Part shown: in pieces, positions 18,342-31,406 of the stretch | Layout of the letters: every line of letters begins with the position of its first letter | Position numbering within the stretch: the stretch's first letter is position 1 | Assembly (NCBI RefSeq): GCF_028368975.1 | Contig: NZ_JAQNDM010000002.1 | Span: 5,760,425-5,824,424 of the forward strand | DNA length: 64,000 nucleotides | Direction of reading: 5' to 3' | Source: Stigmatella ashevillena | GTDB lineage: Bacteria > Myxococcota > Myxococcia > Myxococcales > Myxococcaceae | Notes under the pieces: generated by a model | The model's input: the letters and a program-made list of their open reading frames with translations, nothing else | Database searches by the model: none | What the model was told of the DNA's origin: nothing | Position numbers and translations under genes: made by a program

Positions 18342-19397
18342 GTGACGATGCACGGAACCTCCCAGGCTCTGGAACTGTCCTGCCTTCTTCCCGGCACGGA
18401 CATTGGCCCCTGGCGCGTTCAGGAACTCAGGGGGCAGGGCGCCTATGGGGCCGTCTACCGTGCCGAACGGATGGGGGAGCAAAGCAGCGGCTCCTTTGCA
18501 CTGAAGCTGGCACGCCACCCGATGGATCCTCGCTTCGAGCGCGAGGCGGAACTGCTCTCACGCCTGTCCCATCCGAACGTGCCACGCTTGCGAGACCAGG
18601 GGCTGTGGGCACATCCCTCCGGGCCCATTCCCTTCCTCGTCATGGACTGGGTCGAAGGCTCCTCCCTCTACACCTGGGGCTCGGCTCGCACTCTCTCCTC
18701 CAGGCTCGTGCTACGGGTGCTCTCACAGGCTGCACGCGCCCTGGAGGCCACCCACGCAGCGGACGGCCTTCACCGGGACGTCAAGGGCCACAACCTCCTC
18801 ATCCGTTCTGCAGACAACCATGTAGTGCTCATCGATTTCGGTGCCGGCACCTTTCGCGGCGCTCCCCCGCTCACCGACGAAGTGCTCCCTCCGGGCACTC
18901 ACCCGTACCGCAGTCCCGAGGCCGTGCAGTTCCAATGGCGCTTCTGGCGTGAGCGCGGTCTCCACTATTCGCCTGGACCTGCCGATGACGTGTATGCGCT
19001 GGGCGTCACAGCCTACCGTCTCGTCACGGGCGTCTATCCCCCCGCTCAGGTGACACGGGCGCCCGCTCCAGGCCAAGCGCCTTTCCCAATTCCTAGACAG
19101 ATTCCCCCCGAGGAGCTGGTGACGCTCTGCCCTCATCTGGCCAAGCTCATCCGGCAGATGCTCGCGAAGAAGCCCTCCTCCCGGGGCAGTGCGGCGCAGC
19201 TCGCCCGGGCACTCGAACAGGCGGCGCAGTCTGCAGGGCCTCAGGCCGATCTGCCCATCACCCGCCGCCCCAGGCCTGCTTCCATCCCACGGGCTCACCC
19301 TTCTTCACTCCCGGTCTCCTCGCACCGCCAAGCCCTGGGTCTGGCCGCAGCAGCCGGGCCATGGGCGCGCGGAACTCCTGCCTGCCCTGGCGCGTGA
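18342..19397 (+). CDS. Ser/Thr protein kinase, paralogue 1 (truncated, no membrane anchor)
   Basis: 351-residue open frame whose kinase domain is intact: glycine loop GQGAYGAVY, Lys in FALKLA, catalytic loop HRDVKGHN, DFG in LIDFGAG and the PYRSPEA activation segment. It is nearly identical to the paralogues at 21939 and 29072 through the kinase domain. Relative to them, a net loss of 53 bp just after SHRQALGLAAAAG shifts the frame and adds only a short tail (PWARGTPACPGA), so the membrane segment and Cys-rich C-terminus are lost. The product should be a soluble kinase. The start is GTG 18342 or ATG 18348. Confidence 0.8.
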   Translation: MTMHGTSQALELSCLLPGTDIGPWRVQELRGQGAYGAVYRAERMGEQSSGSFALKLARHPMDPRFEREAELLSRLSHPNVPRLRDQGLWAHPSGPIPFLVMDWVEGSSLYTWGSARTLSSRLVLRVLSQAARALEATHAADGLHRDVKGHNLLIRSADNHVVLIDFGAGTFRGAPPLTDEVLPPGTHPYRSPEAVQFQWRFWRERGLHYSPGPADDVYALGVTAYRLVTGVYPPAQVTRAPAPGQAPFPIPRQIPPEELVTLCPHLAKLIRQMLAKKPSSRGSAAQLARALEQAAQSAGPQADLPITRRPRPASIPRAHPSSLPVSSHRQALGLAAAAGPWARGTPACPGA

Positions 19398-21938: not shown

Positions 21939-23345
21939 GTGACGATGCACGGAACCTCCCAGGCTCTGGAACTGTCCTGCCTTCCTCCCGGCACGGACAT
22001 TGGCCCCTGGCGCGTTCAGGAACTCAGGGGGCAGGGCGCCTATGGGGCCGTCTACCGTGCCGAACGGGTAGGAGAGGAGGCCAGCGGCTCCTTTGCACTG
22101 AAGCTGGCCCTCCACCCCAGGGACCCCCGCTTCGCGCGCGAGGCGGAGTTGCTCTCACGCCTGTCCCATCCGAACGTGCCACGCTTGCGAGACCAGGGGC
22201 TGTGGGCACATTCCTCCGGGCACATTCCCTTCCTCGTCATGGACTGGGTCGAAGGCTCCTCCCTCTACACCTGGGGCTCGGCTCGCACTCTCTCCTCCAG
22301 GCTCGTGCTGCGGGTGCTCTCACAGGCGGCTCGCGCCCTGGAGGCCACCCACGCAGCGGACGGCCTTCACCGGGACGTCAAGGGCCACAACCTCCTCATC
22401 CGTTCTGCAGACAACCATGTAGTGCTCATCGATTTCGGTGCCGGCACCTTTCGCGGCGCTCCCCCGCTCACCGACGAAGTGCTCCCTCCGGGCACTCACC
22501 CGTACCGCAGTCCCGAGGCCGTGCAGTTCCAATGGCGCTTCTGGCGTGAGCGTGGCCTCCACTATGCCCCAGCGCCCGCCGATGACGTGTATGCACTGGG
22601 CGTGACGGCTTACCGTCTCGTCACGGGCGTCTATCCCCCCGCTCAGGCGACACGGGCGCCCGCTCCAGGCCAAGCGCCTTTCCCCATTCCCAGACAGATT
22701 CCTCCTGAGGAGTTGGTGACGCTCTGCCCTCATCTGGCCAAGCTCATCCGGCAGATGCTCACGACGAATCCCTCCTCCCGGGGCAGCGCGGCACAGCTCG
22801 CCCAGGCGCTCGAACAGGCCGCGAAGTCCGCAGGGCCTCAGGCCGATCAGCCCATCACCCGCCGTCCCCAGCCAGTGCCTGTCCCACGAGCCCCTCCTTC
22901 TCCTCTTTCGTTGGCCTCCCACCGCCAGGCCATGGGGCTGGCCGCAGCAGCCGGGCTCGCTGCCTCCCTGCTGCTTCAGGGGGCGTGGCTCCTGTGGCGG
23001 CAGTCGAGTCCTGGGCACGGGGAGGGCTCGCCCTTGCAGGCGCGTGACGGCGCCGGGGCAGACGCGGGGACTTCAGGGCTCGCGAAGGACGCTCTCCCAG
23101 CCAGCGCCTCCCTACGAGCACCAGCGTCTGGACCCATGCGCATCGGCCTCGACGTTCCGAAAAAGCCCCTGCCGGGACAAGCGAAGCCCCCGTGCAAGAA
23201 ACGCGAAGTTGAACTCAATGGCGGGTGCTGGGTTCTGCCGAGGGAAGCCACACCCCCCTGCGGGGAACGGAACTACGAGTGGCAGGGTGCTTGCTACTAC
23301 CCAGTCCTCGCACCAGTTCGCTCAGAAACTTCCGAGCAACCCTAA
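21939..23345 (+). CDS. transmembrane Ser/Thr protein kinase with Cys-rich C-terminal domain, paralogue 2
   Basis: 468 residues. Kinase domain about 20-290 with all core motifs (GQGAYGAVY, HRDVKGHN, LIDFGAG, PYRSPEA), a Pro-rich linker, one membrane helix around residues 330-346 (GLAAAAGLAASLLLQGAWLLW), and an extracytoplasmic tail ending in a compact Cys motif (KPPCKKREVELNGGCW, then TPPCGERNYEW and GACYYPV). This LNGGCW tail recurs in myxobacterial kinases, so it probably senses something outside the cytoplasm, but no ligand is known. Long stretches are nearly identical to paralogues 1 and 3, suggesting recent duplication or gene conversion. The start is GTG 21939 or ATG 21945. Confidence 0.88.
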   Translation: MTMHGTSQALELSCLPPGTDIGPWRVQELRGQGAYGAVYRAERVGEEASGSFALKLALHPRDPRFAREAELLSRLSHPNVPRLRDQGLWAHSSGHIPFLVMDWVEGSSLYTWGSARTLSSRLVLRVLSQAARALEATHAADGLHRDVKGHNLLIRSADNHVVLIDFGAGTFRGAPPLTDEVLPPGTHPYRSPEAVQFQWRFWRERGLHYAPAPADDVYALGVTAYRLVTGVYPPAQATRAPAPGQAPFPIPRQIPPEELVTLCPHLAKLIRQMLTTNPSSRGSAAQLAQALEQAAKSAGPQADQPITRRPQPVPVPRAPPSPLSLASHRQAMGLAAAAGLAASLLLQGAWLLWRQSSPGHGEGSPLQARDGAGADAGTSGLAKDALPASASLRAPASGPMRIGLDVPKKPLPGQAKPPCKKREVELNGGCWVLPREATPPCGERNYEWQGACYYPVLAPVRSETSEQP

Positions 23346-23798
23346 ACCGAACATTCCATCGATGCTTGGTTGCAAGCGCATCCTGAACCCCCTTCTTCGG
23401 CATGTCTCATTGCAGACCAGTATCATGAGCTTGTCTTCAATCGTGAGATGAACCACCGCCGCATCTTTCCCCATCCGGTCCTTGAGCACTTCCTCGGCGC
23501 ACTTGTCCGGGACGGACTTCCTCCTCCCGTCGCATCCTTCGTGACGCGTCAGGAGGCCGAGGTGTGGTTCGGGAACCAGGAAACCCCTTCCAGACAGTCC
23601 ATCATTCACATCGCAGGGAAGCCTCACCTGTGGGAACTGGCCTGGGTCTCCATGCAAAGGCTTATAGACCTGAAAATCGAAGGAAGGCCTTGTCGCGAGG
23701 CGTGTCGATTCTCTGCATCATTCTTTGTATCGGCGGCTCCTGCGCGTTCGGGACGACTCTCTCGCGCCCCTCCGACACAGAGTTTTGAGGTCAAATGA
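23346..23798 (+). pseudogene. patchwork of accessory-gene fragments behind kinase paralogue 2
   Basis: The kinase frame stays open after its TAA and reads a soluble, immunity-like segment (TEHSIDAWLQAHPEPPSS, then NHRRIFPHPVLEHFLGALV, then LPPPVASFVTRQEAEVWF, then IIHIAGKPHLWELAWVS) with no ribosome site or good start (TTG 23370 and ATG 23452 are the only options). From about 23690 another frame reads a lipoprotein-signal-like start, SRGVSILCIILCIGGSCAFG, that stops after about 27 residues. The stretch looks like a decapitated immunity gene joined to the first codons of a lost lipoprotein gene. No family recognised. Confidence 0.4.
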
Positions 23799-26700
23799 AT
23801 CAGCCAGTGACGACACGCCTGTTGCACCTGAGCACCGCCATGCTCCTCGTGCTGGGCGGATGCAGCACGGAGCCGCCTGCCAGTTCCACCTTGGCCACGG
23901 GCGAGGCCAGCAGCAGGGGAGGCCGCTCCGCAGCGCTCTCCGAAGCGGACTGCTCGGATCAGCCCTGTCCCCCGCCTCCTCCCCCGAGCCTTGGGGCAAT
24001 CCTTCCCACCCTGGCCAGGGCGGGGACGCAAATCACCCTGACGGGCACGGGATTCGTCCCGGGCAGCGTGGGCCAGATCGGCCCGGTGCCCTGCACCACG
24101 ACCTCATTCGACTCCTCGACGGCGCTCACCTGCACGGTCCCCTCCGTCGCGGACGGAATCCATGCGGTCTCGGTCACCAACCCCGATGGGCAGACCTCGC
24201 TCCTCTCGGATGCGCTCACCTTCGACGGCACGCCGCCGACGGGCGGGGGCACCCTCCAACACGACACCTTCGTCAAATCCCTCACGTCCTCTCCCGTCCT
24301 GCGCTGGAGCGCCTTCTCGGACGCGCAAAGCGGGCTCGAGCACTACGAGTACGCCATTGGCACCCGCGAGGGAGAAACCGACACCCGCGCGTGGACCCCG
24401 TTCATTCCCAGCAACGGCCCCAGCACCGTCATCACGGGGCTGGCGCTCTCCGAGGGCGCGGCCTACTTCCCGTCAGTCCGGGCCTATGATCGCGCCGGCA
24501 ACGTCACCACCCTCCTGGGCAGCGCCTGGGTCACCGACACGGTGGGCCCCACGGCCCCTACCGGGCTCACGGACGGGGGCTTCACGCTCCTGTTGTCGCT
24601 CTCCCCGACGGCGAGCTGGACCGCGAGCACCGACTTGGGGAGTGGCGTCGCCTCTTACGAGTTGGCGATCGGCACGAGCCCGGGTGCCACCGACGGCTTC
24701 CCGTGGACCCCGATTGGAAACGTCACCAGCGCGTTCCGCTCGGACCTGAAGCTGGCGGTGGGGACCACCTACTTCACCTCGGTGCGCGCCTCGGATCAGC
24801 TCGGGAACGTGGGTGCCGTTGCGAGCGGGGACGGCTGGGTGACCCGGCTGGCGAGCCCATCCACCCTGGTTTTCCTCCCCATGGACCACACCACGGCCGT
24901 CGCCGGGGACAACTCGTCCGCGGAGTTCGTGAACTTCGCCAACGCGGGAGCCAGCTTCCGTCCCGTGCTGGCACCGGCCATCTCGACGGTCTCGCCGCGG
25001 TTCGGGGCCGGGAGCGGCTCCTTCAAGAACGGCTATCTGAAGACGCCCAGCAGCGTGGCCAACGTCATCGGCCACAGCGATTTCACCATCGAGTTCTGGG
25101 TCAAGTACAGCGGCTCGCTCGAATCTGCCTACTCCACGGTGGTCTCTGGCAGCGGCTGGGACATCTCCCTCGGCAACACGAACTACAACAACGCCGCCGA
25201 CTTTTCGTATGGCAATCAATTCGCGCGGTGGTGGGGCGGTGCCGTCGGATGGGGCGTGCTGCCCAAGGGCACCTGGTCGCACCTGTCGATCTCCCGGTCC
25301 GGCACCAGCCTCTACACGCACCTCAATGGCGTGCTCAAGGAGACGGCCACCCTCCCGGCCGGTGCCCGCCTGGAGGGCGACGCCATCGTCTCGAGCCTCA
25401 CGGTGGGTAACTTCGCCCCAGCGTACCTCGACGATCTGTTGATCACGGTCGGTGCGGCGAGACACTCCACGGCCAACTTCACCCCCACGCAGGTGACGGG
25501 CCTGCCGTCCATCTACCTGCCGATGGATGCTCCCAGTGGGGGAGAGAACGTCTCCGCGGACTTCAGGAACACGGTGGTGGGCGGAGTCGCGCTGTCGCCC
25601 TCGGGCTCGCCGACCCTCTCCAGCGCCGCGGGCTGCGACGGCTGCGGCGACTTCCGTTCGGGCTCCCTGTCCACGACCGTCGCTTCGACGAATGTGATGG
25701 GAACCCGCGACTTCACGATCGAGTTCTGGGTCAACCACAACTCCCTGGGCGTCGGGGGCTCTCCGGTGCTCATGGGGGGAAATGCCTCCGGCGCCTTCTG
25801 GGACATCTCCCTCGGCAACACGCACTACAACGGGGAGGCGAACTTCGCCTTCTACACCACGGAGGTGAGTGGTTACCGGCACTGGGGCGGAGACATCGGC
25901 TGGGGCGTCCTGCCGCTCAACACCTGGACGCACCTGTCCCTCACCCGACTGGGCACGACGCTGATCACCCACAAGAATGGGGCCCTGGTGGAGACGAAGA
26001 CGATTCTCGCCACGGACAAGATGGAAGGGCCGAACACCACGTCCGCCTTCACGATCGGCGCCTACCCGGCCTACCTGGATGATCTGATGATCACCGTGGG
26101 CAAGGCCCGGCACACGACCGCGAGCTTCCCGGTGGAGCGGGCGGCCAACGCGCCCCGCGTGGTCGAGACGCAGCCCTATGTCTTCCTTCCGCTGGATGGG
26201 GTGAATGGCTCGGCGGTCTTTCCGAACCTCGCCGCCTCGGGAGTGACGTTCAGCGCGGTCTCGGCGCCCGTCCTCACCACGTCGACCTCCCGGTTCGGAG
26301 GGGCGAGCGGCAAGTTCCACGGAGGCTCCCTGACGACAGCCGCCACCGCCGCGAATGTCATTGGCACCCGTGACTTCACCATCGAACTCTGGGTGAACTT
26401 CGCCGCGTACGGAGGCGCTGGCACCCCCGTGATATCTGGGAATGGATGGGACATCTCCCTGGGCAACACGTACTACAACAACAGCGCGGACTTCGCGTAC
26501 GGCAATCAACCGACGCGGTGGTGGGGTGGCAGCGTCGGGTGGGGCGTCCTGCCGCTCAACACCTGGGTCCACCTGGCCATCTCGCGCTCACAGGATCGGC
26601 TCTACACGCACAAGAACGGCGTGCTCGTGTCGACCGTCGAGATCCCTTCCAACGCGCACCTGGAGGCGGGCGCGGCGACGTCCGCGCTGAAGCTCGGTGA

Positions 26701-27403
26701 GAGCGCCTCGTACCTGGACGACGTGATGATCACGGTGGGCAGCGCGAAGTACTCGACCGCCCATTTCACGGTGGCGCAGTTGGCCAAGCCGTTCATGTAC
26801 TTGCCGATGGACGGAGCCAACCTCTCGACGTCATTCCCGAACTACGGAACGGGCCCGGGGGTGTCCAACGTCGCCTCGCCCACGCTCACCACCCTGTCGG
26901 CGGTGCACGGCGGGGCGAGCGCCAACCTGACGGCCGGCAGCCTCACCACCGCCACGAGCCCGGCGTACCGCCTGGGGACCCAGGACTTCACCATCGAGTT
27001 CTGGGTGAACAACAGCGTCCTCGGGGCGGGCGGCTCCCCGGTCATCACGGGCAATGGCTGGGACATCTCCCTGGGCAACAGCCGGTACAACAACGAAGCC
27101 AACTTCGCGTACTACGTCACCCAGAACAGTGGCTATCGACACTGGGGGGGAGACATCGGCTGGGGGGTGCTGCCCCTGAACACCTGGGTCCATCTGTCCC
27201 TGAGCCGCTCGGGCACGCGCTTGTACACGCACAAGAACGGCGTGCTCGTGTCGGCCGTGACGATCCCCGCCAACAGCGTCATGGAGGGACCGAACACCAC
27301 GTCGGCCATCACGGTGGGCGCTCACCCCGCCTACGTGGACGACCTGCTCGTGACGATGGGCAAGGTCCGGCACACGACCGCGAACTTCGCGGTCTATCCG
27401 TAA
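23795..27403 (+). CDS. large surface lipoprotein with IPT/TIG and four LamG-like domains
   Basis: 1202 residues. Lipoprotein signal with lipobox LGGC near residue 23. An IPT/TIG-like domain (about 65-145: ILPTLARAGTQITLTGTGF) is followed by two Ig/Fn3-like units (about 150-350) that share SGxxxYExAIGT motifs. Four repeated LamG/concanavalin-type domains then start near residues 358, 572, 795 and 1000. Each has a FLPMD/YLPMD start, a DFTIEFWV strand, GWDISLGN-x2-YNN, WGVLP-x-x-TW-x-HLS and a YLDDLLITVG end. LamG folds usually bind carbohydrate or matrix, so a surface adhesion or binding role is likely. The last 200 bp of the gene are duplicated downstream of hicB. Confidence 0.9.
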   Translation: MNQPVTTRLLHLSTAMLLVLGGCSTEPPASSTLATGEASSRGGRSAALSEADCSDQPCPPPPPPSLGAILPTLARAGTQITLTGTGFVPGSVGQIGPVPCTTTSFDSSTALTCTVPSVADGIHAVSVTNPDGQTSLLSDALTFDGTPPTGGGTLQHDTFVKSLTSSPVLRWSAFSDAQSGLEHYEYAIGTREGETDTRAWTPFIPSNGPSTVITGLALSEGAAYFPSVRAYDRAGNVTTLLGSAWVTDTVGPTAPTGLTDGGFTLLLSLSPTASWTASTDLGSGVASYELAIGTSPGATDGFPWTPIGNVTSAFRSDLKLAVGTTYFTSVRASDQLGNVGAVASGDGWVTRLASPSTLVFLPMDHTTAVAGDNSSAEFVNFANAGASFRPVLAPAISTVSPRFGAGSGSFKNGYLKTPSSVANVIGHSDFTIEFWVKYSGSLESAYSTVVSGSGWDISLGNTNYNNAADFSYGNQFARWWGGAVGWGVLPKGTWSHLSISRSGTSLYTHLNGVLKETATLPAGARLEGDAIVSSLTVGNFAPAYLDDLLITVGAARHSTANFTPTQVTGLPSIYLPMDAPSGGENVSADFRNTVVGGVALSPSGSPTLSSAAGCDGCGDFRSGSLSTTVASTNVMGTRDFTIEFWVNHNSLGVGGSPVLMGGNASGAFWDISLGNTHYNGEANFAFYTTEVSGYRHWGGDIGWGVLPLNTWTHLSLTRLGTTLITHKNGALVETKTILATDKMEGPNTTSAFTIGAYPAYLDDLMITVGKARHTTASFPVERAANAPRVVETQPYVFLPLDGVNGSAVFPNLAASGVTFSAVSAPVLTTSTSRFGGASGKFHGGSLTTAATAANVIGTRDFTIELWVNFAAYGGAGTPVISGNGWDISLGNTYYNNSADFAYGNQPTRWWGGSVGWGVLPLNTWVHLAISRSQDRLYTHKNGVLVSTVEIPSNAHLEAGAATSALKLGESASYLDDVMITVGSAKYSTAHFTVAQLAKPFMYLPMDGANLSTSFPNYGTGPGVSNVASPTLTTLSAVHGGASANLTAGSLTTATSPAYRLGTQDFTIEFWVNNSVLGAGGSPVITGNGWDISLGNSRYNNEANFAYYVTQNSGYRHWGGDIGWGVLPLNTWVHLSLSRSGTRLYTHKNGVLVSAVTIPANSVMEGPNTTSAITVGAHPAYVDDLLVTMGKVRHTTANFAVYP

Positions 27404-27485
27404 ACGGCGTCACCGCGCTGCTCTGAGAGGCTCGCCGCGTCCCCACTCCGCCCTGTCGGCGGGGCAGGGGGCGCGGCGCTCCGCA
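27241..27485 (+). repeat. 245-bp direct repeat, copy A (3' end of the LamG lipoprotein gene)
   Basis: Covers the last 54 codons, the stop and about 80 bp downstream. It matches 28731-28975 without gaps at about 93% (16 differences counted by eye). Confidence 0.9.
27434..27477 (+). terminator. GC-rich hairpin after the LamG lipoprotein gene
   Basis: GCCGCG at 27434 pairs with CGCGGC at 27472, with inner pairing CCCC/GGGG and CCGCC/GGCGG around a CTGTC loop. It starts about 30 bp after the stop. No T-run follows, so termination efficiency is uncertain. The downstream repeat copy keeps the outer stem but has mismatches in the inner stem. Confidence 0.4.
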
Positions 27486-27896
27486 AAGGTGATGGAGAGG
27501 GGAGTGCCAGGGCGCTCAGCTCCTGCCAGCACCTTGACAGAGATGCCTCCAAGCCCTCGGGAGTTGGACTGGCGGGCAGGCCCACCTACCAAGCAGGCAA
27601 CCGTCGAGCACCGTTGGCTAGCCCGAGGGATCACCCCGCAACCCCTCTTAATCACTGGGGATTTCAGATACCTGCCAGACTTTTGTCGGCACCATTCAGA
27701 TCGCCCACAGAGCAGCCCTTTAACCCTTGCACCATGGTACCACAGGCAGTACTATTCTCTAAACAAGGAGGTTGCTGGGGTAATGCGCACGAGCAAGTCA
27801 CGAAAACCGCCGTAGTTCTAATGGGAACCTCGTCGAGTCTGTCAAAATCTTAGCAGGAGGTAGTGATCATGTATTTACGTTTTGGAGACTAAAAAT
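27486..27896 (+). other. AT-richer stretch upstream of hicA, probably decayed coding DNA
   Basis: No convincing gene. Short overlapping frames read protein-like pieces, for example NAHEQVTKTAVV and, in another frame, NGNLVESVKILAGGSDHVF, as if one gene had been broken by frameshifts. A strong AGGAGG at 27855 precedes a 7-codon mini-frame (ATG 27869 to TAA) that ends just before the hicA ribosome site. The hicA promoter probably lies here. Confidence 0.35.
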
Positions 27897-28151
27897 ATGT
27901 CGAATATTGAAGCGGATATTGCCGAACTTGAACTCGGCGGGGTGAGATTTGATCGCCTTGTAGTGCTCTGTAAGCGCCACTTTGAGGGTCGACATGGAAA
28001 GGGGAGTCATTATTTGTTCAAAACTCCTTGGTCCGGCGACCCACGTATCAATCTCCAACCTTCAAAGAATTCAGGGGAGGCTAAACAGTACCAAGTCCGT
28101 CAGGTACTTGCTGCCCTTCGAAAGCTGCAGGGCCTGCAGAAGGAGGACTAG
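27897..28151 (+). CDS. hicA: HicA-type mRNA interferase toxin
   Basis: 84 residues matching the HicA/YcfA double-stranded-RNA-binding-like fold: the KGSHYLFKTPW motif near residue 40 contains the catalytic His, followed by the PRINLQ strand and a C-terminal helix YQVRQVLAALRKL. HicA toxins cleave mRNA and are neutralised by HicB. ATG 27897 was chosen because GGAG lies 9 nt upstream; an upstream TTG at 27882 is less likely. The antitoxin gene follows after a 125-bp gap, longer than in most hicAB operons. Codon use is less GC-rich than in the neighbours, suggesting acquisition. Confidence 0.85.
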   Translation: MSNIEADIAELELGGVRFDRLVVLCKRHFEGRHGKGSHYLFKTPWSGDPRINLQPSKNSGEAKQYQVRQVLAALRKLQGLQKED

Positions 28152-28171
28152 GTATAAAAGACTAATCGCTC

Positions 28172-28220
28172 CATTCACAACCCCGCCATGGGACCACTCC
28201 TTCGCTCGGGGTTGTGAATG
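28172..28220. repeat. 14-bp perfect inverted repeat between hicA and hicB
   Basis: CATTCACAACCCCG (28172-28185) and CGGGGTTGTGAATG (28207-28220) with a 21-nt loop. It could be an attenuator or terminator between toxin and antitoxin, an operator for HicB, or the end of a small inserted repeat. No T-run follows. Confidence 0.7.
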
Positions 28221-28276
28221 AAGTCCTATTATCACGCGAGAGGGCCGCTTACTCGTGACTTAGAGAGGCCAAGATC

Positions 28277-28597
28277 ATGATTAACGAGTATCAGTACATT
28301 GTAGATTGGGAGCCCGCCGACCGAGTGTTCGTTGCCAGGGTCACGGAATTTCCTTCGCTTGCCGCGCACGGTGATTCACAAGAAGAAGCACTGCGTGAAA
28401 TTCGAGGCGTGGTGGAGGAGGTTATTGCCGATTTGAATGCAACCGGCGAACCCGTGCCAGAGCCACTCTGTTTGCGTCAATACAGCGGAAAGCTCAACTT
28501 GCGAATGCCCCCAGACCTGCACCGGCGATTGGCGGTTGAGGCGGACAGAAAAGGGGTATCACTGAATCAGTTTATCAACATGAAGCTGGTGCAATAA
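28277..28597 (+). CDS. hicB: HicB-type antitoxin
   Basis: 106 residues. The N-terminal half is the degenerate RNase-H-like HicB fold (YQYIVDWEPADRVFVARV, then FPSLAAHGDSQEEAL) that binds HicA. The C-terminal 35 residues are a ribbon-helix-helix/HicB-DNA-binding segment (LNLRMPPDLHRRLAVEA, then GVSLNQFI), expected to autoregulate the operon. AGAGAGGCC lies upstream of the ATG. It pairs with hicA directly upstream. Confidence 0.9.
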   Translation: MINEYQYIVDWEPADRVFVARVTEFPSLAAHGDSQEEALREIRGVVEEVIADLNATGEPVPEPLCLRQYSGKLNLRMPPDLHRRLAVEADRKGVSLNQFINMKLVQ

Positions 28598-28730
28598 CCA
28601 GGGGGGACACCCGAGAAGCGCGAGCCAAGCGCCGCCCAGACTCAAGAGGGCGCCTCGTTTGTCAGGGCTCTCTTCGCATCTCAGGCGCTCCACTGCTGGG
28701 AACGCCGCTTCCTCAAACAGACGAGGCAAG

Positions 28731-28975
28731 CGTGCGCGTGTCGGCCGCGACGATTCCCGCCAACAGCGTCATGAAGAGACTGAACACCACGTCGGCCATC
28801 ACGGTGGGTTCCCACCCTGCCTACGTGGACGACCTGCTCGTGACGATGGGCAAGGTCCGGCACACGACCGCGAACTTCACGGTCTATCCGTAAACGGCGT
28901 CACCGCGCTGCTCTGGGAGGCTCGCCGCGTCCCCACTACGTCCTGTCGGCGGGGAAGGGGGCGCGGCACTCCGCA
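28731..28975 (+). repeat. 245-bp direct repeat, copy B (orphan 3' end of the LamG gene)
   Basis: Gap-free copy of 27241-27485 at about 93% identity, still in frame through the terminal HTTANF-x-VYP and TAA but without any start. It begins 134 bp after hicB and ends about 75 bp before the leader of kinase paralogue 3. Nothing else was recognised in 28598-28730. Confidence 0.9.
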
Positions 28976-29071: not shown

Positions 29072-30478
29072 GTGACAATGCACGGACTCTCTCAGGCGTT
29101 GGAGCTGTCCTGCCTTCCTCCCGGCACGGACATTGGCCCCTGGCGCGCTCAGGAACTCAGAGGGCAGGGCGCCTATGGGGCCGTCTACCGCGCCGAGCGG
29201 GTAGGAGAGGAGGCCAGCGGCTCCTTCGCGTTGAAGCTGGCCCTCCACCCCATGGACCCCCGCTTCGCGCGCGAGGCGGAGTTGCTCTCACGCCTGTCCC
29301 ATCCGAACGTGCCACGCTTGCGAGACCAGGGGCTGTGGGCACATTCCTCCGGGCACATTCCCTTCCTCGTCATGGACTGGGTCGAAGGCTCCTCCCTCTA
29401 CACCTGGGGCTCGGCTCGCACTCTCTCCTCCAGGCTCGTGCTGCGGGTGCTCTCACAGGCGGCTCGCGCCCTGGAGGCCACCCACGCAGCGGACGGCCTT
29501 CACCGGGACGTCAAGGGCCACAACCTCCTCGTCCGTTCCCAGGACTGCCAGGTGGTGCTCATCGACTTCGGCGCCGGCACCTTTCGCGGCGCTCCCCCGC
29601 TCACCGACGAAGTGCTTCCTCCGGGCACTCACCCGTACCGCAGTCCCGAGGCCATCCAGTTCCAATGGCGCTTCTGGCGTGAGCGTGGCCTCCACTATGC
29701 CCCAGCGCCCGCCGATGACGTGTACGCACTGGGCGTGACGGCTTACCGTCTCGTCACGGGCGTCTATCCCCCCGCTCAGGCGACACGGGCGCCCGCTCCA
29801 GGCCAAGCGCCTTTCCCCATTCCCAGACAGATTCCTCCTGAGGAGTTGGTGACGCTCTGCCCTCATCTGGCCAAGCTCATCCGGCAGATGCTCACGACGA
29901 ATCCCTCCTCCCGGGGCAGCGCGGCACAGCTCGCCCAGGCGCTCGAACAGGCCGCGAAGTCCGCGGGACCTCAGGCCGATCTGCCCATCACCCGCCGCCC
30001 CAGGCCCGCTGCTGTTCCACCAGCACGCTCTGCCTCCCGCTCGTTGGCCTCCCACCGCCAAGCCCTGGGGCTGGCCGCAACAGCCGGACTCGCTGCCTCC
30101 GGGCTCATTCAAGGCGTGTGGACCCTATGGCAACAGCCGAGGCCTTGGCACGTGCGAGATCCCTCTGCCCTGGAGCGTGACGGCGCCGGGGCGGACGCGG
30201 GGACTTCGGGGCTCGCACAGGACGCACTCCCCGGCAGCGCCTCCACGCAAACCCCAGAGCCCGGCCCAAAGTACATCGGCCTCGACATTCCAAAGAGGCC
30301 CCTCCCGGGACAAGCGAAGCCCCCTTGCATGAAGCGCGAGTTCGAACTCAATGGTGGATGCTGGGGGCTCCTCCGAGATGTTGTGCCTCCCTGTGAAGCC
30401 CGGAACTACGAGTGGAAGGGCGCTTGCTATTACCCAATCCTCGCGCTGGTCCCTTCTGGAAACTCCGAGCAACCCTAG
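29072..30478 (+). CDS. transmembrane Ser/Thr protein kinase with Cys-rich C-terminal domain, paralogue 3
   Basis: 468 residues, the same layout as paralogue 2: intact kinase domain (GQGAYGAVY, HRDVKGHN, LIDFGAG), Pro-rich linker, one membrane helix (GLAATAGLAASGLIQGVW, about residues 330-346) and the Cys-rich tail (KPPCMKREFELNGGCW, then GACYYPILALV). Nucleotide identity with paralogue 2 is very high through the kinase core, and divergence concentrates in the linker and the extracytoplasmic tail, as expected if the outer domains recognise different signals. A DUF3396 gene follows after 22 bp and may share the transcript. The start is GTG 29072 or ATG 29078. Confidence 0.88.
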   Translation: MTMHGLSQALELSCLPPGTDIGPWRAQELRGQGAYGAVYRAERVGEEASGSFALKLALHPMDPRFAREAELLSRLSHPNVPRLRDQGLWAHSSGHIPFLVMDWVEGSSLYTWGSARTLSSRLVLRVLSQAARALEATHAADGLHRDVKGHNLLVRSQDCQVVLIDFGAGTFRGAPPLTDEVLPPGTHPYRSPEAIQFQWRFWRERGLHYAPAPADDVYALGVTAYRLVTGVYPPAQATRAPAPGQAPFPIPRQIPPEELVTLCPHLAKLIRQMLTTNPSSRGSAAQLAQALEQAAKSAGPQADLPITRRPRPAAVPPARSASRSLASHRQALGLAATAGLAASGLIQGVWTLWQQPRPWHVRDPSALERDGAGADAGTSGLAQDALPGSASTQTPEPGPKYIGLDIPKRPLPGQAKPPCMKREFELNGGCWGLLRDVVPPCEARNYEWKGACYYPILALVPSGNSEQP

Positions 30479-30500: not shown

Positions 30501-31406
30501 ATGACTGCCCCCCCGCGCTTCCGTATCCAGACGGAAAATGGATCCGTCCGTGTGCAGGAAGGTTTGCGCCTGACCTTCTACATGCTGCCTCCCCACCAGG
30601 AACTCGTTCGGGGAGTCCTGAGTGCCTTGGAGGCTTACCGGCAAGCTGTGGGCCTTCAAGTCCTCAGGCTATTCGCAACGGAGGAAGGAGATTGGAAGGC
30701 CCTTGATGACGCGGGCTGGACTCAGGTCCAGCGGAAGCTTCGTGAAAAACGCAGTCCGCTCATCACCCTTCATGAGGCATCCGAAACCGAGTCCCGCTAT
30801 GCCTTCTTTTACTTTGGGAAGGACGCGACGTATGCCAGCAGAATGAATGAGCCCGGCGCGATGTGCGAGGCCACGTTCTGGCTACCCACCGAGTTCATGG
30901 ACGCTCATGGACCGGAGCGTGTCCGAAAATTGGCGCTGGAGCTTGCCTCACTGCTGCCTTGGCACTCTGGGTATTGCGGTCTCTCGTTCAACGGAGACCT
31001 CGACATCCCGAGCGATTGGCATGCTCTGACACAGTACGGTATGCGCCATCCAGGCATCGACATTCCCAGTCCAGAGGGGCACTCCTGGGACATCGGAAGT
31101 CGACTGGGAGGACCCTCCTGGATGAACTTTCTCGGCCCAGCCGTGTTGATGGATCTGGGGGGCGCGTCTGGATTACGGGCTCACCTCCAAGACCCCTCCA
31201 CCACGGTCCACCCGTGGGAAGGAGGCAAGGCCATCGTCACCCTGGGGACGCAACCCGAAGCGGGAGATACACTCCGAGGAGACGTGCTGCCCGCCTACCG
31301 TGAACTCGCCCGGGTCTTGGAGCCGTGGCGTTATCATCGGCAGTGGCAAACGCCGTCCCCCAGAGATCAGGAACTCCGCCGATGGGAAAGCCGCTTCCTC
31401 GATTGA
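30501..31406 (+). CDS. DUF3396 / type VI immunity family protein
   Basis: 301 residues with the DUF3396 pattern: an N-terminal strand (RLTFYMLPPH), TFWLPTEFMDAHG, a LPWHSGYCGLSFN core and WMNFLGPAVLMDLGG near residue 220. Members of this family are annotated as immunity proteins for secreted toxins (type VI immunity) and are frequent in myxobacteria. GGAG lies 10 nt upstream of ATG 30501. It follows kinase paralogue 3 by 22 bp, but no toxin gene is next to it, so it is either an orphan immunity gene protecting against non-self toxin or is tied to the kinase. That last point is inference. Confidence 0.82.
   Translation: MTAPPRFRIQTENGSVRVQEGLRLTFYMLPPHQELVRGVLSALEAYRQAVGLQVLRLFATEEGDWKALDDAGWTQVQRKLREKRSPLITLHEASETESRYAFFYFGKDATYASRMNEPGAMCEATFWLPTEFMDAHGPERVRKLALELASLLPWHSGYCGLSFNGDLDIPSDWHALTQYGMRHPGIDIPSPEGHSWDIGSRLGGPSWMNFLGPAVLMDLGGASGLRAHLQDPSTTVHPWEGGKAIVTLGTQPEAGDTLRGDVLPAYRELARVLEPWRYHRQWQTPSPRDQELRRWESRFLD

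Follow-up and report, generated by a model that had tools for sequence, protein, structure and literature searches.

Genes and repeats at the locus

The window, a stretch of 64,000 nucleotides from Stigmatella ashevillena, contains three tandem protein kinase paralogues that begin at 18342, 21939, and 29072. Between the second and third of these lie a LamG lipoprotein gene and a hicAB toxin-antitoxin pair, which is enclosed by two copies of the LamG 3′ end. The features are as follows:

21939–23345, + strand: protein kinase paralogue 2, upstream of the LamG gene
23795–27403, + strand: intact LamG lipoprotein gene, 1202 aa (Pfam: four Laminin_G_3 repeats, one TIG domain)
27240–27485, + strand: repeat copy 1, the 3′ end of the live LamG gene with 82 bp of 3′ flank
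27580–28596, + strand: hicAB segment (promoter region, hicA, spacer, hicB), probably acquired horizontally (homology in G117, G+C drop)
27737–27752, + strand: palindromic element GTAC-N8-GTAC upstream of hicA, predicted HicB operator (conserved placement)
27870–27893, + strand: mini-ORF MYLRFGD (then stop), ending within a few bases of the hicA start, conserved in G117
27897–28151, + strand: hicA toxin gene, 84 aa from ATG (weak Pfam match, related hicA genes, dN/dS)
28172–28224, + strand: 13-bp inverted repeat ATTCACAACCCCG...CGGGGTTGTGAAT between hicA and hicB (fold z −3.2)
28277–28597, + strand: hicB antitoxin gene, 106 aa, with a ribbon-helix-helix C-terminus (Pfam HicB 2.2e-15)
28679–28714, + strand: 3′-end remnant of a TsiV-type immunity gene, SQALHCWERRFL (TsiV profile score, match to the TsiV gene of G005)
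28730–28975, + strand: repeat copy 2, a dead remnant from the 3′ end of a second LamG copy (93.5% identity to copy 1, neutral decay pattern)
29072–30478, + strand: protein kinase paralogue 3, 94–100% identical to kinase 2 over about 800 bp
30501–31406, + strand: intact TsiV immunity gene after kinase 3 (Pfam TsiV 5.6e-52)

The first-pass annotation had described an ungapped repeat of 245 bp and about 93% identity, and this was borne out with one extra base at the left: positions 27240–27485 and 28730–28975 align without gaps across 246 bp, and the longest identical run is 60 bp. Copy 1 comprises the last 53 codons of the LamG gene and its stop codon, followed by 82 bp past the stop, and copy 2 also stays in frame up to the stop codon. 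In a search of the whole 10.95-Mb genome, in which both contigs were covered piece by piece, copy 2 scored E = 5e-103; the LamG tail had no close match elsewhere, only the LamG gene's own internal repeats (76–78%), and no further copies of the hicAB interval were found. The DNA that follows copy 1 (27486–27585), compared in direct and inverted orientation with the DNA that follows copy 2, showed a similarity no better than that of random window segments. The contents reported for the interval, hicA and hicB, were confirmed as the only credible ORFs between the repeats (ORF and Pfam analysis), and the 1.2-kb interval contains no integrase gene. Two features had gone unnoticed in the first-pass annotation: the TsiV remnant at about 28679–28714 and the three tandem kinase paralogues. 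The G+C content across hicAB is 48–55%, versus 65–69% on both flanks (∼67%).

The hicAB pair and its putative control elements

HicB has the RNase H-like N-domain and DNA-binding C-domain of its class (Pfam HicB 2.2e-15 at the C-terminus; the UPF0150-like N-domain, at 3.5e-4, is below its cut-off). The HicA class is defined by a double-stranded RNA-binding-like fold and a catalytic histidine in a G-S-H motif. The Pfam HicA_toxin match of the hicA product is weak (E 0.02, below the cut-off), and in an alignment its core, KGSH...TPW.GDPRINLQ, is common to the HicA genes that adjoin related hicB genes in Acidobacteria. In G117, a genome from another genus of the same family, the hicAB segment is 81% identical at the DNA level from 27726 to the hicB stop codon, the similarity is weaker from 27726 back to 27580, and the HicB proteins are 90% identical. 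The dN/dS values against G117 are 0.14 for hicA and 0.08 for hicB, so selection maintains both genes. The pair would function as an ordinary reverse-order type II toxin-antitoxin system, in which HicA would be an mRNA-cutting toxin and HicB would neutralise HicA and repress its own promoter.

The GTAC-N8-GTAC element upstream of hicA is the only one in the window, and one copy is found at the matching place in G117 and in loci L069, L071, L073, L074, and L076. Among eight Acidobacteria hicAB loci it is present in five, and one of the remaining three begins too near a contig end. Because HicB of Burkholderia pseudomallei binds a palindrome that overlaps the −10 box (review PMC11594946), this element is a probable HicB operator, predicted by analogy, and it offers a testable operator for the HicB subfamily of Myxococcota and Acidobacteria. 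The MYLRFGD mini-ORF has its own strong AGGAGG and ends just before hicA, an arrangement that suggests translational coupling; the GGAG inside the mini-ORF presumably serves hicA. Another mini-ORF, MRTSKSRKPP (27783–27815), also lies upstream of hicA and is conserved in G117. The inverted repeat between hicA and hicB has one mismatch in G117 and no T-run behind it.

Within genus g1, this HicB is found only in this genome, except for a 38%-identical match of 47 residues in G001. In G117 neither a LamG fragment nor a direct repeat across hicAB was found, which indicates that hicAB travels without the LamG-tail repeats. The only repeat found to flank hicAB in relatives was a 69-bp match in L069, overlapping AGCAAT-type simple repeats, and a literature search returned no case of hicAB flanked by direct repeats. 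All HicB homologues in plasmid and phage records were below 60% identity, and no source was found among them. A transposase remnant suspected by eye upstream of hicAB in G117 was rejected, as it had no Pfam match. The hicAB pair is best read as having arrived by horizontal transfer, separately from the LamG duplication.

Origin of the second repeat copy

The two repeat copies were compared over 164 coding bases, with the LamG ortholog in genome G001 as the outgroup. Copy 2 carries nine private coding changes, distributed 3/3/3 over the codon positions, and copy 1 carries two; on the outgroup branch there are 13, of which 10 are at third positions. The dN/dS between the copies is 0.62, and constraint in copy 2 is relaxed. 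The even distribution of private changes indicates that copy 2 is free of constraint, and the counts on the three branches place the duplication after the split from G001. Copy 2 is, by its pattern of substitution, a dead, neutrally decaying remnant.

The LamG gene itself is present in two of the seven genomes of the genus, at unrelated loci. Its G001 ortholog is 87% identical, and the homology is confined to 23686–27404, that is, from 109 bp ahead of the LamG start codon to the stop codon and no further. In G001 the gene adjoins a SUKH-1 immunity gene, and G004 has an empty site at that locus; LamG and the SUKH-1 gene form an indel between the two genomes (L019:11968–16223; L117 around 1518–1692). 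LamG is an accessory gene whose position shifts between genomes. An intact second LamG copy was not found in the seven genus genomes (one per species, with LamG in two only).

The kinase genes on either side show signs of exchange. Kinases 2 and 3 are 94–100% identical for about 800 bp, including identical runs of 277 and 239 bp, and then the identity falls to ∼78%, with a sharp step about 900 bp into the genes. This drop indicates that they have recombined, by gene conversion or exchange. Each is only ∼80% like the kinases of G005, in which the same block occurs in another order, without LamG and without hicAB, and in which a kinase of this family (kinase B) has a TsiV gene immediately before it. 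A large paralogue expansion is seen in genome G000, where the kinase family numbers 63 (E below 1e-60) and TsiV has 19 matches. Between kinase 2 and LamG, 23370–23672 is a protein-like open stretch with no Pfam match, possibly an immunity-gene remnant.

At 28679–28714 the sequence is SQALHCWERRFL, a stretch of only about 12 codons that corresponds to the motif at the C-terminus of TsiV-type immunity proteins. With a TsiV profile built from 13 related genes, this was the second best of 127,930 window positions, at 19.5 bits (the next scored 9.8); the top position was the intact TsiV gene, at 31365. The last 19 bp of the remnant are identical to the G005 TsiV gene upstream of kinase B. Copy 2 therefore stands between a TsiV gene stump and kinase 3, and the presence of the last ∼12 TsiV codons between hicB and copy 2 indicates that copy 2 belongs to the older kinase/TsiV array and not to hicAB. 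No such stump would be expected just inside the right repeat if hicAB were a clean insertion with a target duplication around it. The repeats are not the termini of a hicAB element.

The explanation that we consider probable is that a rearranging kinase/TsiV array once contained a second LamG gene, of which copy 2 is the leftover, and that hicAB came separately, by horizontal transfer. We infer the following order of events. A LamG gene would have entered the kinase/TsiV array, and a second, full LamG copy would then have arisen, for which an unequal exchange of kinase 2 with kinase 3 is the simplest and likeliest route. Such an exchange would put the second LamG gene just upstream of kinase 3, the position of copy 2. 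The second gene would have stood between a TsiV immunity gene and that kinase. A deletion would have taken the 5′ part of the second copy together with most of this TsiV gene, joining the TsiV 3′ end, through a short filler, to what remained of that copy, its last 53 codons. The hicAB pair would have been acquired separately, before or after the deletion, and it sits in degraded DNA, with the live LamG gene on one side and the remnant on the other. A simple kinase exchange does not by itself explain the absence of a TsiV remnant between kinase 2 and LamG, for which extra deletions are needed. The duplication of LamG may also have been partial rather than full, as 246 bp survive.

Alternative explanations and comparison with known systems

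Of the two origins offered in the first-pass annotation, the collapse of a second lipoprotein gene fits the data. The other, duplicative capture of hicAB, does not fit them, and we regard it as unlikely. According to this scenario hicAB entered at a break in the LamG 3′ end, and repair, by template switching or by integration of a circle that carried the LamG tail, duplicated the 246 bp. It would account for the fact that the repeats enclose hicAB with only short extra DNA on each side, and hicAB is foreign by its G+C content, with a close counterpart in a different genus. However, the right inner flank is the TsiV remnant and not donor DNA, the G117 hicAB ends at the hicB stop codon without repeats or LamG, and 246 bp exceeds usual target duplications, which are far shorter.

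We give little credence to an active excisable cassette, in which recombination between the repeats would regularly remove hicAB in the population while addiction selects against its loss. The 93.5% identity and the 60-bp identical run are in its favor, and as copy 2 is in frame to the same stop codon, a crossover between the repeats would leave the LamG gene whole. The geometry of the clean excision suggested earlier is therefore sound, and excision itself is possible. Nevertheless, the kinase paralogues that flank the region are the stronger recombination substrate, and exchange between them would remove LamG and hicAB together; the dN/dS values of 0.08–0.14 reflect selection since the divergence from G117 and are not specific to this site.

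Site-specific integration at the LamG 3′ end, with the repeats as attL and attR and hicAB as the last cargo, is more improbable still. Genomic islands classically show foreign DNA framed by a duplicated gene 3′ end, and here too foreign DNA lies between two LamG tails. Against it, the 1.2-kb interval lacks an integrase, the repeat is 246 bp long, and LamG is itself accessory and so offers no stable host site. The decaying copy is copy 2, whose common ancestor with copy 1 is younger than the split from G001, and element DNA does not abut both repeats, as the TsiV remnant lies between hicB and copy 2. Just as improbable is a reading in which the LamG-tail repeats turn hicAB into a cassette dependent on recombination, which the population loses and regains through homologous exchange while the toxin guards the region against loss.

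In summary, the locus is an ordinary genome scar and not a purpose-built excisable cassette. A repeat that flanks a toxin-antitoxin pair can mimic a mobile cassette although it is left over from a gene duplication that has nothing to do with the pair, and the kinase/immunity-gene array is a collecting place for accessory genes such as LamG and hicAB.

The pair resembles the HicAB operons with ribbon-helix-helix HicB, B. pseudomallei HicAB and Yersinia pestis HicAB3, in that the toxin gene comes first and a palindrome lies upstream of hicA. It differs from them in a 125-bp hicA-hicB spacer with a 13-bp inverted repeat (the hicA3-hicB3 intergenic region of Y. pestis is 174 bp; review PMC11594946) and in the 7-codon mini-ORF before hicA, which is conserved in both members compared in detail. 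Islands that insert at the 3′ ends of genes and duplicate their att sites share with this locus the placement of foreign DNA between two such ends, but here there is no integrase, the repeat is long and diverged, and a host remnant lies inside the interval. The locus is like tandem-duplication remnants in having a truncated, neutrally decaying 3′ copy beside the intact parent gene, among arrayed paralogues that recombine with one another, and unlike them in that a foreign toxin-antitoxin pair separates parent and remnant.
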